This document shows, piece after piece, positions 52,291 to 59,335 of a stretch of DNA of 64,000 nt. How positions within the stretch are numbered: position 1 is the stretch's first letter; the number at the start of each line of letters is the position of its first letter. Source of the stretch: Akkermansia sp. N21116 (GTDB lineage Bacteria > Verrucomicrobiota > Verrucomicrobiia > Verrucomicrobiales > Akkermansiaceae). The notes under the pieces were generated by a model. It saw nothing but the letters and a program-made list of their open reading frames with translations, had not been told where the DNA came from and did no database searches. The DNA is taken from assembly GCF_029854705.2 (NCBI RefSeq), contig NZ_CP139035.1, positions 1,364,001 through 1,428,000 of the forward strand. Direction: 5' to 3'. The translations under genes were made by a program, and so were the position numbers.

Positions 52291-53073
52291 TTAGCGTTTT
52301 ACCCAGGGGCGCAGGAAGTCGCCGGCTAAATGCCCTGCCTCAATGTGGCGGATCAGGGCACTGCCGAGAACGGCGGCGTTGGGCTGGGCGTCGAAGGGGA
52401 GTTCTTCAAGTTGCTCCGGATTTTGGAGACCGAATCCGAGAGCGAGCGGGATGTCGAAACAGGCTCGGGCACGGCGCATGGTTTCGATAACAGTGTCTGT
52501 CAGGCTGGTTTTGCCTCCTGTAATGCCAAGGACGGAGACGACGTACACGAATCCTTTGGATATGGCAGCATATTCACGCATGCGTTCTTCCGTCGTGTTG
52601 GGAGCGACGAGCGTGATTAGAGCCAGGTTGTGGGCATCGAATGGTTTGCGGAAGATGCCGCTTTCCTCCAGAGGCATATCGGGAACGATGAAACCGGAAA
52701 TACCCGCGATGGCAGCATCGAGAGCCAGTTTGTCCGGCCCGTATTGGAGGAAGGGGTTGGCATATCCCATCAGAACGATTTTAGCGCGGAACTTGCCGCG
52801 CCTTTGCTTGAGCCCATCGATGATCCAGCGGAGCGAGATGCCGTTTTCAAGAGCATTGCGGGAGGCGTTCTCGATAACGGGGCCGTCGGCGACGGGATCG
52901 GAAAAGGGAACTCCGATTTCGATGATGTCAACACCGGCTTGGTCCATATTCTCCATAACGGACCAGAAGGTGTCCGGGGTAGGGAATCCGGCTGTCAGGA
53001 AAGGAATGACTGCTTTCCTTTTCTGTTCATGGGCATCCAGAATGGCTTGGTGAAGCGGATGAATCGTATTCAT
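52291..53073 (-). CDS. trpA: tryptophan synthase alpha chain
   Basis: 260 residues from ATG 53073 (MNTIHPLHQAILD). TIM barrel that cleaves indole-3-glycerol phosphate to indole and glyceraldehyde 3-phosphate; indole passes to TrpB. Catalytic Glu and Asp are in IIEIGVPFSDPVADGP. Other marks are PFLTAGFPTPD, GYANPFLQYG, VPDMPLEES, APNTTEERM, the phosphate loop GITGGKTSL, and LALGFGLQNPEQ. The frame is open 17 codons further up but into spacer sequence. It follows trpB by 25 bp and is the last gene of the trp operon. Confidence 0.96.
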   Translation of the reverse strand: MNTIHPLHQAILDAHEQKRKAVIPFLTAGFPTPDTFWSVMENMDQAGVDIIEIGVPFSDPVADGPVIENASRNALENGISLRWIIDGLKQRRGKFRAKIVLMGYANPFLQYGPDKLALDAAIAGISGFIVPDMPLEESGIFRKPFDAHNLALITLVAPNTTEERMREYAAISKGFVYVVSVLGITGGKTSLTDTVIETMRRARACFDIPLALGFGLQNPEQLEELPFDAQPNAAVLGSALIRHIEAGHLAGDFLRPWVKR

Positions 53074-53098: not shown

Positions 53099-54271
53099 TC
53101 AGAATTGGATATATTGGCTGACAATGCCTAGGTCTTTGTCTCCGCGTCCGGAGAGGTTGACGAGTACGTCGCATCCTTCGGGGAGAGTCTCGGCATTTTT
53201 GAGAACCCAGGCCAGGGCATGGGAGGATTCCAGAGCCGGGATGATGCCTTCTTCCCGGCAAAGGGATGAAAATGCCTCAAGCGCATCCTGGTCGTACACG
53301 ATACCGTAGTGAACGCGTCCCGTTTCTGCGAGGTGGGCGTGTTCCGGTCCGACGCCCGGGTAGTCCAGTCCGGCGGAGATGGAGCTTGAGGGCATGATCT
53401 GCCCGTCTCCGGTTTGCAGAAGCATGGTGATGTGACCGTGCAGGACTCCGGGGGACCCCAGGTTGATCGGGGCGGAGTTTTGGCATCCGGGTTCTCCGGT
53501 GCCCCCTGCTTCGACACCGATGAGTTTGACATCCGTGTCTTTGATGAAGGGGTGTAGAATACCGATAGCGTTAGAGCCGCCGCCGACGCAGGCGACGACA
53601 TAATCCGGCAGTTTGCCTGCCCGTTTCAGCATTTGGGCACGGGCTTCCTTGCCTATAATGGATTGGAGTTCACGAACGAGAATCGGGAAAGGATGGGGCC
53701 CGGCTGCCGTACCGAAACAGTACAGGGTATCGTGCTGGTGGGCGATCCAGTAGCGCAGAGCTTCATTGATAGCATCCTTGAGTGTGCGGGATCCTGTTTC
53801 CACGGGGAATACTTCTGCTCCGAGGAGCTTCATGCGCATGACATTGGTTGCCTGCCGTTCAACATCTTCAGCTCCCATGAAAATGGTGCAGCGCATGTTG
53901 AGGCGCGCTGCCGCAGTGGCGGTGGCGACACCATGCTGACCGGCACCTGTTTCGGCGATGAGGTGGGTTTTACCCATCATCTTGGCGAGGAGGGCCTGTC
54001 CAAGGGCATTATTGATTTTGTGGGCTCCCGTGTGGTTGAGGTCTTCCCGTTTGAGCCATAGGCGGATGCCTAGTTTTTCCGAAAGATTGGGACAGAAAGT
54101 CAGAGGGGATTCCCTGCCGACATAGTTGACGAGCAAGTCCTGGTAGGCCGTTTTATACTCGGGGCTTTGCATGATGGTCCCCATGGCGCGTTCTAATTCG
54201 GTGAGAAGGGGCATGAGTGCTTCCGGGACGAATTGGCCGCCGAAGTTGCCGAAGTATCCTTTTTTATTCAT
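53099..54271 (-). CDS. trpB: tryptophan synthase beta chain
   Basis: 390 residues from ATG 54271 ([19 protein letters not shown]). PLP enzyme that joins indole with L-serine to make tryptophan. The PLP lysine is in [20 protein letters not shown], the catalytic glutamate in [13 protein letters not shown], the phosphate cup in [12 protein letters not shown], and the serine-binding EAGGTGEPG region is present. It belongs to the standard TrpB1 type that pairs with TrpA, not the stand-alone TrpB2. ATG overlaps the end of trpF by 8 bp, which suggests coupled translation. Confidence 0.97.
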
Positions 54272-54926
54272 GTGTTGTGATGGGGGTAAGTTGACGGTGA
54301 CGATAGGGGTCGATAGCCCGCATGGCGGAAAGAATCGAAGAGGCAGATTTGTGGCCGGGTGCCCATTCGACACCCGAGTTGAGGTCGACTCCATCCGGTT
54401 TGCAGGAGGTCAAAGCCTGGGCGAGGGAGGCGGAGGAAAGTCCGCCTGCAAGGAACCAGGGACGGGGAGATTGCAGCGTGTTCAAAGCATTCCAGTCAAG
54501 TGGTTTCCCGCTACCTCCCCCGTGGAAACCAGCGTCCAGGAGGAACCATGAGCAGGAGTCGGCATGGCGTTCCATGTCGGCTTGAAGTTCCCGTACGGAG
54601 GCGTATTGCTGCGGCCAGAGGACACGGATGATTTTGTCTGCTCCAATGCCTTTGGCACAGGCGATGGACTGGGGACCGTGAAGCTGTGCAAAGTCTAGGC
54701 GTGCGATGTCCATGATGCGTTTGATTTCCTGTTCGTCTTGTTTGACGAAAACACCGACTCGTTTGAGATGGGCGCTTTGAAGCCCTGCTGCCCGGTTGGG
54801 GGAGATATATCTGGAACTGCGACTGTGGAAGATGAAACCGCAGAATTGGGCGCCCATGCCCATGCAGGTGTCCAGATTGCTCTGGTGGGTGATGCCGCAT
54901 ACTTTGATGCGAAGTGATTGGTTCAT
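54264..54926 (-). CDS. trpF: phosphoribosylanthranilate isomerase
   Basis: 220 residues from ATG 54926 ([14 protein letters not shown]). It carries out the Amadori rearrangement of N-(5-phosphoribosyl)anthranilate. The catalytic cysteine is in KVCGITH and the catalytic aspartate in [19 protein letters not shown]. Other marks are [48 protein letters not shown] and [15 protein letters not shown]. The open frame extends 63 codons upstream but overlaps trpC and has no similarity. It is a separate gene from trpC, unlike the E. coli trpCF fusion. The C-terminus overlaps trpB. Confidence 0.96.
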
Positions 54927-54933
54927 GATAAAA

Positions 54934-55719
54934 TTAGTGAAGGTTGGCGATGAGGGAGGAGAGGTTGTCTCCCGGTTTGCCGTTTTGCATGAGGGCCGTA
55001 CCGATGAGGGCTGCGTGGTAACCGGCTTGTGCGGCGGCGGTGAGGTGGGATGGTTGTTCCATGGCCGAGGCGGCGATCCATATTTCTCCATCCTGGCGGA
55101 ACCGGACGAGATCAAGGCAGATTTGCCGGTCGGTTTTCAGCGTGTCGAGGTCGCGGGCATTGACTTGGATGATGCGCGCTCCGGATTGGCGGGCAAGTAT
55201 CAAGTCTGCTTCATCGAAGATTTCGACAACGGCATGGATGCCGAAGCTTTCAGCTTGTTCCCGGAGGGTCCGCAACAACCCGGCATCCGGAGTAAAACGG
55301 ACGATCAGGAGCATAGCCGAGGCAGCTGTGGCGGCTGTGGCCGTCACTTGCAGAGGATCCATGATGAAGTCTTTGCGCAGGAGTGGAACTCCGGGAGCTG
55401 CCATGCGATCCAGGAATCCCAGTTCTCCTTTGAAGAATTGTTCTTCCGTCAATACCGAAATACATGAAGCTCCGGCGTGGGCGTATTGTTCGGCGACGAG
55501 TTCCGGACTTAACCCTTCGGCGATGATTCCGCGGGAAGGAGAAGCCTGCTTGAACTCCGCGATGATAGCCAGGGACTGGTCGGAAGGAGGAGCCTGCAAG
55601 GCCTGGAGAAAATCCGGACGGCGGCCCTGCCGAGGAACCGGCAAAAGGCCCGCCCGTTCCAGACGGCGGAGTTCCCGGATTTCCGGTTCCTTGGCTTTTT
55701 TGAAGTTATCAAGCAACAT
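54934..55719 (-). CDS. trpC: indole-3-glycerol phosphate synthase with altered active-site motif
   Basis: 261 residues. TIM barrel that closes the indole ring. Preserved catalytic positions: E55 and K57 in IIAEFKQASPSRG, K116 in LLRKDFIMDP, E166 in AVVEIFDE, and N187 in IIQVNARDL. The segment that is almost always SESGI on strand 7 reads AASAM (216-220): the serine (S218) stays but the glutamate is alanine (A217). The frame is intact and the protein full length, so this is not a decay mutation by appearance. It overlaps the end of trpGD by 11 bp and lies 7 bp before trpF. Confidence 0.92.
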   Translation of the reverse strand: MLLDNFKKAKEPEIRELRRLERAGLLPVPRQGRRPDFLQALQAPPSDQSLAIIAEFKQASPSRGIIAEGLSPELVAEQYAHAGASCISVLTEEQFFKGELGFLDRMAAPGVPLLRKDFIMDPLQVTATAATAASAMLLIVRFTPDAGLLRTLREQAESFGIHAVVEIFDEADLILARQSGARIIQVNARDLDTLKTDRQICLDLVRFRQDGEIWIAASAMEQPSHLTAAAQAGYHAALIGTALMQNGKPGDNLSSLIANLH

Positions 55720-57301
55720 GGAGCGGTTTCCTTCCTACGCCGGCTGTAACGGCTTCCCTGGCACGAGCTATGCAGAGGGGCAGGGACTGGTCGTCCTCCA
55801 TCAGGTAGATGGCCAGTCCGAGATTGAGGGCTACCATGTCCTGCATGGGGCGGGTACCTCTGCCTTCGAGCAGCTCGTGGAGGACGCGGACGGCGGCGTC
55901 CTTGGTTCGGACGGTGAGTTCCTCAGGAGTACATGGTGCGATGCCGAAGGAGGAGGGTTCGACCGTGATGTCTTCGCGTTTGCCGTTGCGGACGATGGCT
56001 ACCATGGCCGGACCGATGGGAGTGAGTTCGTCATAGCCTCCGGCCCCGTGGACAACGGCGGCTTTTTCGAAGTGCGACTTTTTGAGGGCTTCGGCGATGA
56101 GACCGACAAGTTCCGGCCGTGCGACTCCCAGCAGGATGTGGGATGGACGGGCCGGATTGAGCAGAGGACCCAGGAGATTGAATATGGTGCGGACTCCCAG
56201 TTCCCTCCGGATGAGACCGACATTGCGGAAGGCCGGGTGGTAGTTCGGAGCGAAGAGGAAAGTGAAGTTACGCTGGGAGAGCATGTCTTTGACTTGATCC
56301 GGAGTGGTGTCAAGGGGAAGCCCCAGAGCTTCAATAGCATCGGCGGAACCGCATGTAGACGAGACGGCTCGGTTACCGTGCTTGATGACTTTGTAACCCA
56401 TACCTGCCATTGTCAAGGCAGTGACGGTGGAGCAGTTGAAGGACGAACGGCCGTCGCCGCCTGTGCCGACGATGTCGATGGCTTTACCTTCGATACCGTT
56501 GACGCGGACGGCACGGTTGAGGCCGATGTTCATGGCGCAGGCTAGTTCCAGAGGTGTTTCTCCTTTCATGCGCAGCCCCATCAGGAAGGAGCCTGCCTGC
56601 GAGGAGGTCATGTGTCCGTCCATCAGGCTGGCAAAGGCGGAGGCGGCTATTTCCGCGCTCAGGTCGTTGCCTTCGGCCAGTGTATCAAGGATGTTCGAGA
56701 CACGGCGTTCCCGGTGCTGATCGGGGAGGATTGTGTTGGGGAAGTTGGCCAGGAGGGTAAGACCTTCCGGAGTCAGGATGGATTCCGGGTGGAACTGGAC
56801 GCCAACCCACGGGCGGTCATTATAGCGGAGAGCCATCACTTCGTTTTCCGGGCCTCGGGCGGTGACGGTGAAACGGGGATTGGGTGCGTTTTCCGGAGAT
56901 TGGACGACAAGAGAGTGGTACCTGCCCACTTTCATCGGATTGGAGATTCCCTCGAACAAGCCCTGTTCATCGTGGTCGATGTCGGAACATTTACCGTGCA
57001 TCACATAGGGGGCGCGGCTGACTTCCGCTCCGGCAAAATGCCCCAGAAGCTGGTGTCCGAGGCAGACTCCGAGTACCGGGATGTGTGCCGGCAATCTCTT
57101 GAGGAATTCCAGGCATAATCCGGCGTTGGCGGGATGGCTGGGTCCTGGAGAAAGGCAGACTTCTGTCAGTTCGGGATCCGTCGCAAGTTCTAGGATACGG
57201 GGGTCGTCGTTGGTGAGGACAACGGGGTTTCGGCCCAGCGTGTAGAATGCCTGGACGAGGTTGTAAGTGAATGAATCGTAGTTATCAATGAGTAGAAACA
57301 T
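55709..57301 (-). CDS. trpGD: fused anthranilate synthase amidotransferase / anthranilate phosphoribosyltransferase
   Basis: 530 residues. N-terminal class I glutamine amidotransferase (about 1-190): nucleophile cysteine in VLGVCLGHQLLGHFAG, with the His-Glu pair in VGVQFHPESILT. It supplies ammonia to TrpE. The C-terminal part (about 200-530) is TrpD, which adds the phosphoribosyl group to anthranilate: DIVGTGGDGRSSFNCST, KHGNRAVSSTCGSAD and NLLGPLLNPARP. The G-D order is the same as in E. coli. ATG overlaps the end of trpE by 17 bp, and its end overlaps trpC by 11 bp, so the operon is very tightly packed. Confidence 0.97.
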   Translation of the reverse strand: MFLLIDNYDSFTYNLVQAFYTLGRNPVVLTNDDPRILELATDPELTEVCLSPGPSHPANAGLCLEFLKRLPAHIPVLGVCLGHQLLGHFAGAEVSRAPYVMHGKCSDIDHDEQGLFEGISNPMKVGRYHSLVVQSPENAPNPRFTVTARGPENEVMALRYNDRPWVGVQFHPESILTPEGLTLLANFPNTILPDQHRERRVSNILDTLAEGNDLSAEIAASAFASLMDGHMTSSQAGSFLMGLRMKGETPLELACAMNIGLNRAVRVNGIEGKAIDIVGTGGDGRSSFNCSTVTALTMAGMGYKVIKHGNRAVSSTCGSADAIEALGLPLDTTPDQVKDMLSQRNFTFLFAPNYHPAFRNVGLIRRELGVRTIFNLLGPLLNPARPSHILLGVARPELVGLIAEALKKSHFEKAAVVHGAGGYDELTPIGPAMVAIVRNGKREDITVEPSSFGIAPCTPEELTVRTKDAAVRVLHELLEGRGTRPMQDMVALNLGLAIYLMEDDQSLPLCIARAREAVTAGVGRKPLHVA

Positions 57302-58691
57302 GGTCTTCTCCGGTTAAAATGACGTCAATAATTTTCCCTTTGTTCAAGCATTCCTGCCATTCGTTCTCCGGCTTGGAGTCGTATACGAGGCCGGCGCCTG
57401 CCTGCCAGTAGATCTTTCCGTTGCGTTCCCACATGCTGCGGATGGTGATACCGGCGTCCATGTGGACGGTATCCTTATCGAGTCCGAGCCATCCGATACA
57501 TCCGGCGTAGGGCCCGCGAGGGAGGGGTTCGGTGTCGGCGATGATTTCCATGGCCCGGACTTTGGGGGCACCGCTGACGGTACCGGCGGGGAAGGTTGCC
57601 GCAAGGATGTCGATGGGTTCCAGATCAGGCTGGAGGCGGGCCATGACTCGGGACGTCATGTGCATAACGTGGGAAAAGCGTTCGATTTCCATGAGTCTTT
57701 CCACTTTGACGGAGCCGGGTGTGGCAAGACGGCCGAGGTCGTTTCTGCCGAGATCGACGAGCATGACGTGTTCAGCTCGTTCCTTGGGATCCTGCAGGAG
57801 GTCGGCGGCGAGTTCGGAGTCTTCCACTTCCGTGGCACCACGCTTGCGCGTTCCGGCAATGGGGGAAAGCTGGAGGGTGCCTCCGGTACAGCGAACAAGG
57901 AGTTCCGGAGAGGAACCGAAAAGACGCAGGCCGGGAAGATCCATGTAGAACATGTAAGGGGAGGGATTGATGCTGCGCATCCGGCGGTACAGGGTAAAGG
58001 GATCTCCCTGGAAATCGGCCGAAGCCTGGGTAGCGAGGACGACCTGGATGCCTTCTCCGTCGTGGAGAAGTTCCCGCACTTTGCGGACGCCGTCCATATA
58101 TCCCTGTTGATCGGGGGTACGAGTGACCGGACCGATGACGGGAGCGGCCGTTTCCCCCGGGTGGCGGAAGGAGAGGTCTCGGTGATCGCCCAGGCTTATT
58201 TGCGTGAGTCGGTTGTAAAGGTGATCGAAGACGATGACGGTGCCGGGCAGAACCAGGCAGGCTTCCGCGTCGGAGACATGGATGGAGTTTTGCAGCTTGG
58301 GCAGGAAGAGGGCGGATGTTTCGTAACCGAAGTAGCCGTAGAGGGCACGAGTAATCGGGGGCTGTTTTTTGTCGTCGGGAATGAGGGTGATGGCTTGCAT
58401 TATCCGCCGGATGCCATCCGGGTAGGGCATGCCGGTTAGGGAGGTCAGGGTGCTAAGCCTTTTGTCTTCCGTTTTCACGTCAAGCTTTCCGTTAGCGCAG
58501 GATGCCGTCAGAAGGAAATCGCAGGCAATAACGCTGAAACGGCCCCATTTGCCGTCCACTTCGGCGCTTTCAAAGAGCAGGGCCTTGTCTCCGTTTCGGG
58601 TGACGTTCAGGAACAGACTGATCGGGGTTTCCAGGTCGGCATTCAGCCGTCTGCTTTTTTGTTCCAGGGTGATTGTTGGAGTGGGTTCCAT
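57285..58691 (-). CDS. trpE: anthranilate synthase component I
   Basis: 468 residues from ATG 58691 (MEPTPTITLEQKSRRL); a longer frame to 58763 runs into the attenuator terminator. Converts chorismate to anthranilate with TrpG. The LLFESAEVDGKWGRFS segment holds the LLES-type element that binds feedback tryptophan. The catalytic half has SPELLVRCTGG, PIAGTRKRG, LVDLGRNDLGR, MHMTSRV and AATFPAGTVSGAPKVRAMEII, as in chorismate-binding enzymes. First structural gene of the trp operon; both enzyme feedback and transcription attenuation are therefore expected. Confidence 0.97.
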   Translation of the reverse strand: MEPTPTITLEQKSRRLNADLETPISLFLNVTRNGDKALLFESAEVDGKWGRFSVIACDFLLTASCANGKLDVKTEDKRLSTLTSLTGMPYPDGIRRIMQAITLIPDDKKQPPITRALYGYFGYETSALFLPKLQNSIHVSDAEACLVLPGTVIVFDHLYNRLTQISLGDHRDLSFRHPGETAAPVIGPVTRTPDQQGYMDGVRKVRELLHDGEGIQVVLATQASADFQGDPFTLYRRMRSINPSPYMFYMDLPGLRLFGSSPELLVRCTGGTLQLSPIAGTRKRGATEVEDSELAADLLQDPKERAEHVMLVDLGRNDLGRLATPGSVKVERLMEIERFSHVMHMTSRVMARLQPDLEPIDILAATFPAGTVSGAPKVRAMEIIADTEPLPRGPYAGCIGWLGLDKDTVHMDAGITIRSMWERNGKIYWQAGAGLVYDSKPENEWQECLNKGKIIDVILTGEDHVSTH

Positions 58692-58730: not shown

Positions 58731-58772
58731 AAAAAACTGCTTTGATTCTTGCGGGGGAATCAAAGCAGTTTT
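58731..58772 (-). terminator. trp attenuator terminator
   Basis: On the minus strand the arms AAAACTGCTTTGATTC and GAATCAAAGCAGTTTT pair perfectly around an 8-base loop (CCCCGCAA in part), ending in a seven-T tract. It lies 39 bases before the trpE start and 27 bases after the leader-peptide stop. Confidence 0.92.
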
Positions 58773-58826
58773 CAGAAAAACTTTATTGGCATGATAATGT
58801 TACGCCTGCACAGCGGGATTCCCCCG
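58752..58826 (-). promoter_or_regulatory. trp antiterminator pairing
   Basis: On the minus strand CGGGGGAATC (58826-58817, inside the leader-peptide gene) is perfectly complementary to GATTCCCCCG (58761-58752), which is the tip of the terminator 5' arm and its loop. A further GCAG (58809-58806) can pair with CTGC (58768-58765) of the same arm. This pairing excludes the terminator. The element starts 18 bases beyond the second Trp codon, so a ribosome stalled there would leave it free. Confidence 0.8.
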
Positions 58827-58913
58827 TTCCGAAGAAAAGGTACGCCACCAATAGTAGCCAAAGGTAAATCCTTTGGTTGTCGTTATGTTGATGGTTGGCG
58901 TGCAGGGTTGCAT
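58800..58913 (-). CDS. trpL: trp operon leader peptide
   Basis: 37 residues from ATG 58913 to TAA 58800, too short for routine ORF lists. The centre reads FGYYWWRTF: two adjacent Trp codons (58850-58845) at positions 22-23. Tryptophan is the rarest residue, so the pair just before a terminator and trpE is strong evidence for a regulatory leader. When charged tRNA-Trp is scarce the ribosome should stall there. No clear Shine-Dalgarno is seen, as for most genes here. It lies 83 bp after the SMR transporter stop; I do not see an unambiguous promoter in that gap. Confidence 0.88.
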   Translation of the reverse strand: MQPCTPTINITTTKGFTFGYYWWRTFSSERGNPAVQA

Positions 58914-58996
58914 TCGCGAGAATTACTACTGCTCATCGGATCGATGTGCAAAGAACTCCTGTGTCATACAGAATTTTTTGGACCCGCTTGGAACAT

Positions 58997-59335
58997 TCAC
59001 GAATGCGCGGGTGCCAGTTTAAGTCCGATAATCCCGATAAGGAGGCATGTGGCAGCCATCATGCGCCAGACATTGTTGGAATCACCGAAGAAAGCGATGC
59101 CTATGGTGAATGTACCGAGAGCACCGATACCCGTCCAGACGGCATAGGCTGTACCGATAGGGATGGAACGCTGGGCCAACCAGAGGAAAAAACCGCTGGC
59201 GGCCATGCTGGCAACGGAAAAGGATATCCATGCCAGCATTTTGCTGCCCGACTGAGGGCCTGTTTGCGACAGTTTGAACCCGAGGGGCCAACCTATTTCA
59301 AACAATCCGGCCAGAATGAGGTAGATCCAGGACAT
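58997..59335 (-). CDS. SMR-family transporter (SugE/Gdx type)
   Basis: 112 residues, four membrane helices, the usual SMR size. The essential helix-1 glutamate is in AGLFEIGWPLGFKLS, and the segment IGTAYAVWTGIGALGT matches the Gdx/SugE branch, which exports guanidinium in exchange for protons, more than the EmrE drug-export branch. The gene is only 12 bp downstream of the membrane polyferredoxin and so has no room for its own guanidine riboswitch. It would be cotranscribed with that gene. The exact substrate is not certain. Confidence 0.87.
   Translation of the reverse strand: MSWIYLILAGLFEIGWPLGFKLSQTGPQSGSKMLAWISFSVASMAASGFFLWLAQRSIPIGTAYAVWTGIGALGTFTIGIAFFGDSNNVWRMMAATCLLIGIIGLKLAPAHS

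Follow-up and report, generated by a model that had tools for sequence, protein, structure and literature searches.

The tryptophan genes of Akkermansia sp. N21116 lie on the minus strand of the window, by which we mean the whole 64,000-nucleotide stretch analysed here. A short leader gene with tryptophan codons and an intrinsic terminator are followed downstream by a complete operon in the order trpE-GD-C-F-B-A. The features are listed below from the promoter to the end of the operon.

58923-58951, minus strand: predicted leader promoter, from the register of the genus-wide promoter match
58800-58913, minus strand: trp leader peptide gene, 37 codons plus TAA, reading MQPCTPTINITTTKGFTFGYYWWRTFSSERGNPAVQA and then stop
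58845-58850, minus strand: adjacent Trp codons 22-23, the predicted stall site, from the leader translation
58806-58826, minus strand: 5' side of the antiterminator (region 2), inside the leader ORF, from the swap test
58752-58761, minus strand: 3' side of the antiterminator (region 3), GATTCCCCCG, shared with the upper part of the terminator 5' arm and with the loop
58733-58772, minus strand: intrinsic terminator stem-loop, perfect stem of 16 bp with an 8-nt loop
58730-58736, minus strand: U-run, seven U after CAG, four of them also the 3' end of the stem
57285-58691, minus strand: trpE, anthranilate synthase component I, 468 aa, starting at ATG 58691 (NCBIfam)
55709-57301, minus strand: trpGD, fused glutamine amidotransferase/anthranilate phosphoribosyltransferase, 530 aa (NCBIfam)
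54934-55719, minus strand: trpC (NCBIfam)
54264-54938, minus strand: trpF, start approximate (NCBIfam)
53099-54274, minus strand: trpB, start approximate (NCBIfam)
52291-53070, minus strand: trpA, start approximate (NCBIfam)

Several of the NCBIfam scores of the trp genes fall below the equivalog cut-offs; their family identity is clear. Translation of the minus strand bears out the 37-codon peptide from ATG 58913 to TAA 58800 that the initial annotation had proposed, together with its adjacent Trp codons at positions 22-23 (58850-58845) and the placement of trpE, with its ATG at 58691, after the terminator. An in-frame TAA just 5' of the leader ORF makes ATG 58913 the sole possible start.

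The terminator arms, AAAACTGCTTTGATTC at 58772-58757 and GAATCAAAGCAGTTTT at 58748-58733, form a hairpin with a minimum free energy of -22.1 kcal/mol (z = -9.0 against 200 dinucleotide shuffles). This element had been described as a perfect 16-bp stem and then seven U. Both are present, but four of the seven T belong to the stem, so that the stem and the U-run overlap and these four residues had been counted twice. Absent from that description was the antiterminator, which is the decisive element. Within region 2, CGGGGGAATC (58826-58817) is perfectly complementary to GATTCCCCCG (58761-58752), and GCAG (58809-58806) is able to extend the pairing with CTGC as its partner. When the RNA 5' of 58836 is masked, to mimic a ribosome stalled on the Trp codons, and the terminator 3' arm is as yet unmade, the predicted fold is the antiterminator, at -26.0 kcal/mol; when a ribosome is placed at the leader stop codon, the predicted fold is the terminator. 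On energy alone the completed terminator beats the antiterminator, and the switch must therefore be kinetic, as in the classical model.

Few informative pairs 5' of the terminator emerged from RNAalifold across the divergent clades, and a swap test was therefore used instead. Across 23 distinct species the native antiterminator/terminator duplexes had a mean energy of -20.6 kcal/mol versus -16.1 kcal/mol for swapped partners, and none of 10,000 partner permutations paired as well as the native set, a result whose exact number, but not its direction, is weakened because related species were counted as independent. The antiterminator is exclusive with the terminator, begins just past the Trp codons and is kept by co-variation. 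For the 1:2 protector hairpin, which would form in the absence of leader translation, we found only short, clade-specific candidates, and its classical form is not established. The clade of this window has a short CGGG/CCCG hairpin inside region 2, one that a ribosome positioned on the Trp codons would leave closed.

The genus set comprised 76 genomes, 35 of which carry this trpE. The initial annotation had suggested a search of relatives for the Trp pair 5' of trpE, and had named a terminator lacking conserved Trp codons as the pattern that would speak against attenuation. At 34 of the 35 loci we found a terminator together with a leader ORF in which two to four Trp codons, as WW or WxW, cluster around codons 17-25, and the contrary pattern was found at none of these 34; the remaining locus has no recognisable leader. 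The terminator begins 125-149 nt after the leader ATG in the 34 loci. Their leader peptides differ widely, yet the Trp codons, the position of the ORF and the antiterminator arm, which lies about 16-23 nt past the Trp codons, are kept.

Two kinds of leader can be distinguished. The long kind is that of this window and of the A. muciniphila group (L002 deviates slightly); its peptides mostly end in RGNP.VQ, and the antiterminator arm is inside the ORF. The other kind, found in A. glycaniphila, L032 and others, is mostly shorter (for example AWSWRGYMG-stop or SWRWRSYV-stop), and several of these ORFs stop just before the antiterminator arm. The exception (G107/L022, at G107:C32) is the one trpE of the genus for which no leader was found in the preceding 300 nt. 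Upstream of it are a tRNA-like gene with the look of a tRNA-Ala and another hairpin, which looks as though the attenuator had been replaced in a rearrangement.

The predicted promoter consists of a -35 element TTGCAC (58951-58946), a 17-nt spacer and a -10 element TAGTAA (58928-58923), placing the transcript start at about 58914-58917. In 33 of the 34 Akkermansia leaders the -10 box of the best promoter match ends 7-10 nt 5' of the leader ATG. The same scan in Desulfovibrionaceae, in contrast, gave matches scattered over 6-30 nt with no fixed short distance. Shine-Dalgarno core motifs at -15 to -5 are likewise found before only two of the 34 Akkermansia leaders, compared with 20 of 30 from Desulfovibrionaceae. 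The anti-Shine-Dalgarno sequence (CCTCC) in the 16S of this genome is intact. Since the -10 box lies so near the ATG, the leader mRNA is predicted to be leaderless, with almost no 5' UTR, the Akkermansia transcript beginning 1-4 nt before the ATG. We also looked for transcript starts mapped in Akkermansia muciniphila, and found none.

We interpret the locus as a ribosome-mediated trp attenuator with a leaderless leader, placed before trpE-GD-C-F-B-A, and assign this reading a probability of about 0.88. Anatomy and conservation are taken from the sequence, and from them we infer the start site, the stalling of the ribosome and the control by tryptophan. Attenuation by ribosome stalling, as first suggested in the initial annotation, is supported by the Trp codons, the antiterminator, the mutually exclusive terminator, the operon that follows and the partners that co-vary across the genus. 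RNA polymerase would initiate 1-4 nt 5' of the leader ATG, and a ribosome would load at the start codon without a Shine-Dalgarno sequence. When Trp-tRNA is scarce the ribosome would stall at codons 22-23, leaving free region 2 (CGGGGGAATC...GCAG, some 18 nt beyond the Trp codons), which would pair with the terminator 5' arm and loop and so allow read-through into the operon. When Trp-tRNA is plentiful the ribosome would proceed through region 2 to the stop codon and cover it; the terminator would then form, and transcription would end about 40 nt 5' of trpE. This tiny gene with its Trp codons thus very probably switches on the tryptophan genes when tryptophan is short.

The initial annotation placed this attenuation in a verrucomicrobial genome, which is true but incomplete: the operon has relatives in Desulfovibrionaceae, a family of sulphate-reducing gut bacteria with trp leaders of its own. 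The genus TrpE alignment was scanned against the genomes of 84,980 species, in a scan that needs short conserved motifs and can miss relatives. The nearest TrpE sequences outside the genus came almost only from Desulfovibrionaceae (53-61% identity), together with one from Kiritimatiellota and one from a further bacterium, whereas among the sampled members of the window's phylum, full-length matches from outside the genus do not exceed 45%. Most of the Desulfovibrionaceae compared have a fused TrpGD at 61-68% identity, the most divergent reaching 55%, and in two of them TrpG and TrpD are split; in the sampled other genera of Akkermansiaceae the two proteins are separate and share 33-51% identity. 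The genes trpC and trpF come after trpGD in the Desulfovibrionaceae compared. In trees, Akkermansia, Desulfovibrionaceae and Kiritimatiellota stand together, apart from other Verrucomicrobiota; the branch that joins them has 99-100% SH-aLRT support and a length of about 1.9 changes per column. As judged from these comparisons, the trp operon of Akkermansia has a common origin with that of Desulfovibrionaceae through horizontal transfer. The tree places Akkermansia inside Desulfovibrionaceae, a nesting that is favoured, and a branching of Akkermansia outside the group of Desulfovibrionaceae plus Kiritimatiellota has p = 0.034 against it. With p-AU 0.157, the data remain compatible with Desulfovibrionaceae as a single clade, which makes the direction of transfer likely rather than proven.

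In Desulfovibrionaceae, too, most trpE genes are preceded by a Trp-rich leader and a terminator. These resemble the Akkermansia attenuators in their WW or WWW peptides, in an antiterminator pairing that likewise passes the swap test, and in standing before the same operon with a related TrpE and a mostly fused TrpGD. Common descent of the two sets of attenuators is suggested by a DNA profile of the Desulfovibrionaceae leaders, in which 15 of the top Akkermansia leaders score above nearly all of 1,020 decoys, with collinear hits of weak E-value. In the likeliest history, operon and attenuator would have reached the Akkermansia ancestor together, with the leaderless start coming later. The full sequence of events, in which a Desulfovibrionaceae attenuator was passed on with its operon and then exchanged a Shine-Dalgarno for a leaderless start while keeping its logic of stalling and antitermination, is a tentative proposal to which we give slightly less than an even chance. 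We consider it unlikely, though a serious competitor, that the attenuator arose independently in Akkermansia on an operon acquired without one, the likeness of the leaders being convergence. The motif WWR also occurs in the 14-residue trpL peptide of E. coli, profile hits between the leaders are weak (in a peptide-profile comparison the decoys are interleaved with Akkermansia leaders), and the mode of initiation differs between the two groups. In addition, two loci with the same type of TrpE at 58-59% identity (L087 and L079, one of them from Kiritimatiellota) show no Trp leader upstream. Against convergence are the collinear DNA-profile hits, the same operon and leader position before trpE in both groups, and the similar peptide ends, WWR..M..RG..DV, of the A. 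muciniphila group and Desulfovibrionaceae.

The role of the leader itself admits two other explanations. It is most improbable that the terminator is constitutive, or simply the end of an upstream transcript, and that the Trp ORF is an untranslated chance frame. The lack of a Shine-Dalgarno sequence before the ATG in most Akkermansia leaders would fit such a view, but it is opposed by the retention of Trp codons, ORF position and antiterminator arm at 34 of 35 loci despite divergent peptides, and by the preference for native antiterminator partners. Moreover, an ATG-initiated upstream ORF bearing W.?W arose in only 58 of 3,400 shuffled upstream regions (1.7%), compared with 34 of 34 genus leader loci, the latter having been pre-selected from the 35 trpE loci for possession of a leader. 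That the terminator is regulated through a protein, T-box or riboswitch sensing tryptophan, the leader peptide serving some other purpose, has similarly little to recommend it: trp operons do have known regulators of other kinds, but an Rfam scan of the leader gave no family at its cut-off, T-box and riboswitches included, and all parts of a switch read by the ribosome are present, with the antiterminator arm at the distance from the Trp codons given above.

As far as can be judged from sequence, the Akkermansia attenuator works like that of Escherichia coli, and all of the features that can be assessed in this way are present apart from the 1:2 hairpin. The two share adjacent Trp codons followed by Arg and an antiterminator opposed to a terminator, then trpE and a fused trpGD. 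Unlike E. coli trpL, the Akkermansia peptide is longer, its antiterminator arm is within the ORF (in this clade), its start is predicted to be leaderless and there is no clear 1:2 protector; trpC and trpF are also unfused. The Rfam family Trp_leader (RF00513) scores 27.6 bits against the leader, below the gathering cut-off of 41 bits, and on this score the leader is not to be filed under that family. We rejected the match as support, as background in the same class reaches 29-30 bits. A second match of this kind in the same genome (G000:C1:1727680-1727784, 28.9 bits) consists of a tRNA-like gene with a terminator after it and was also taken as background.

Leaderless leader peptides have precedents. 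The rnTrpL transcript of Sinorhizobium meliloti starts with the ATG of trpL (PMC7298713), and is thus a leaderless Trp attenuator such as is predicted here. It differs in its 14-aa peptide, in preceding trpE(G) only and in having RNA and peptide products that act in trans (PMC7298713). The ilvBNC leader peptide of Corynebacterium glutamicum is made without a ribosome-binding site (Morbach 2000, as cited in PMC4046766), but concerns branched-chain amino acids and belongs to Actinobacteria. According to a 2010 survey, attenuation by leader peptides had been known only from Proteobacteria and Actinobacteria, to which that survey added Firmicutes (PMC2965389). The present locus would extend it to Verrucomicrobiota and predicts how Akkermansia controls its own tryptophan synthesis. 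Our searches of the open-access literature turned up neither a description of a trp attenuator in Akkermansia nor one of the operon's transfer; reports elsewhere are possible. The E. coli-type switch itself is already known, and what makes this example of interest is its cross-phylum history and its predicted leaderless start. The 34 Akkermansia leaders and several dozen from Desulfovibrionaceae form a set for studying both the survival of an attenuator across phyla and its behaviour under a changed mode of initiation. If true, the transfer and the switch to a leaderless start would be a natural test of how the mode of initiation tunes attenuation. Annotation easily overlooks such short leader genes.

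Some further observations concern the surroundings of the leader and the wider genome. Directly 5' of the leader, on the same strand, is a gene for a small multidrug efflux protein of SMR type (SugE/Smr-like by NCBIfam; 58997-59335, minus strand). Within the leader ORF, just 5' of the Trp codons, is a perfect CCAAAGG/CCTTTGG hairpin (58858-58876, minus strand) that is not obviously common to other Akkermansia leaders. A second attenuator was sought before hisG and none was seen; pheA was located. A TrpE match at E 1e-100 is absent from 41 of the 76 genus genomes (25 of the 55 of good quality), which suggests repeated loss of tryptophan synthesis.
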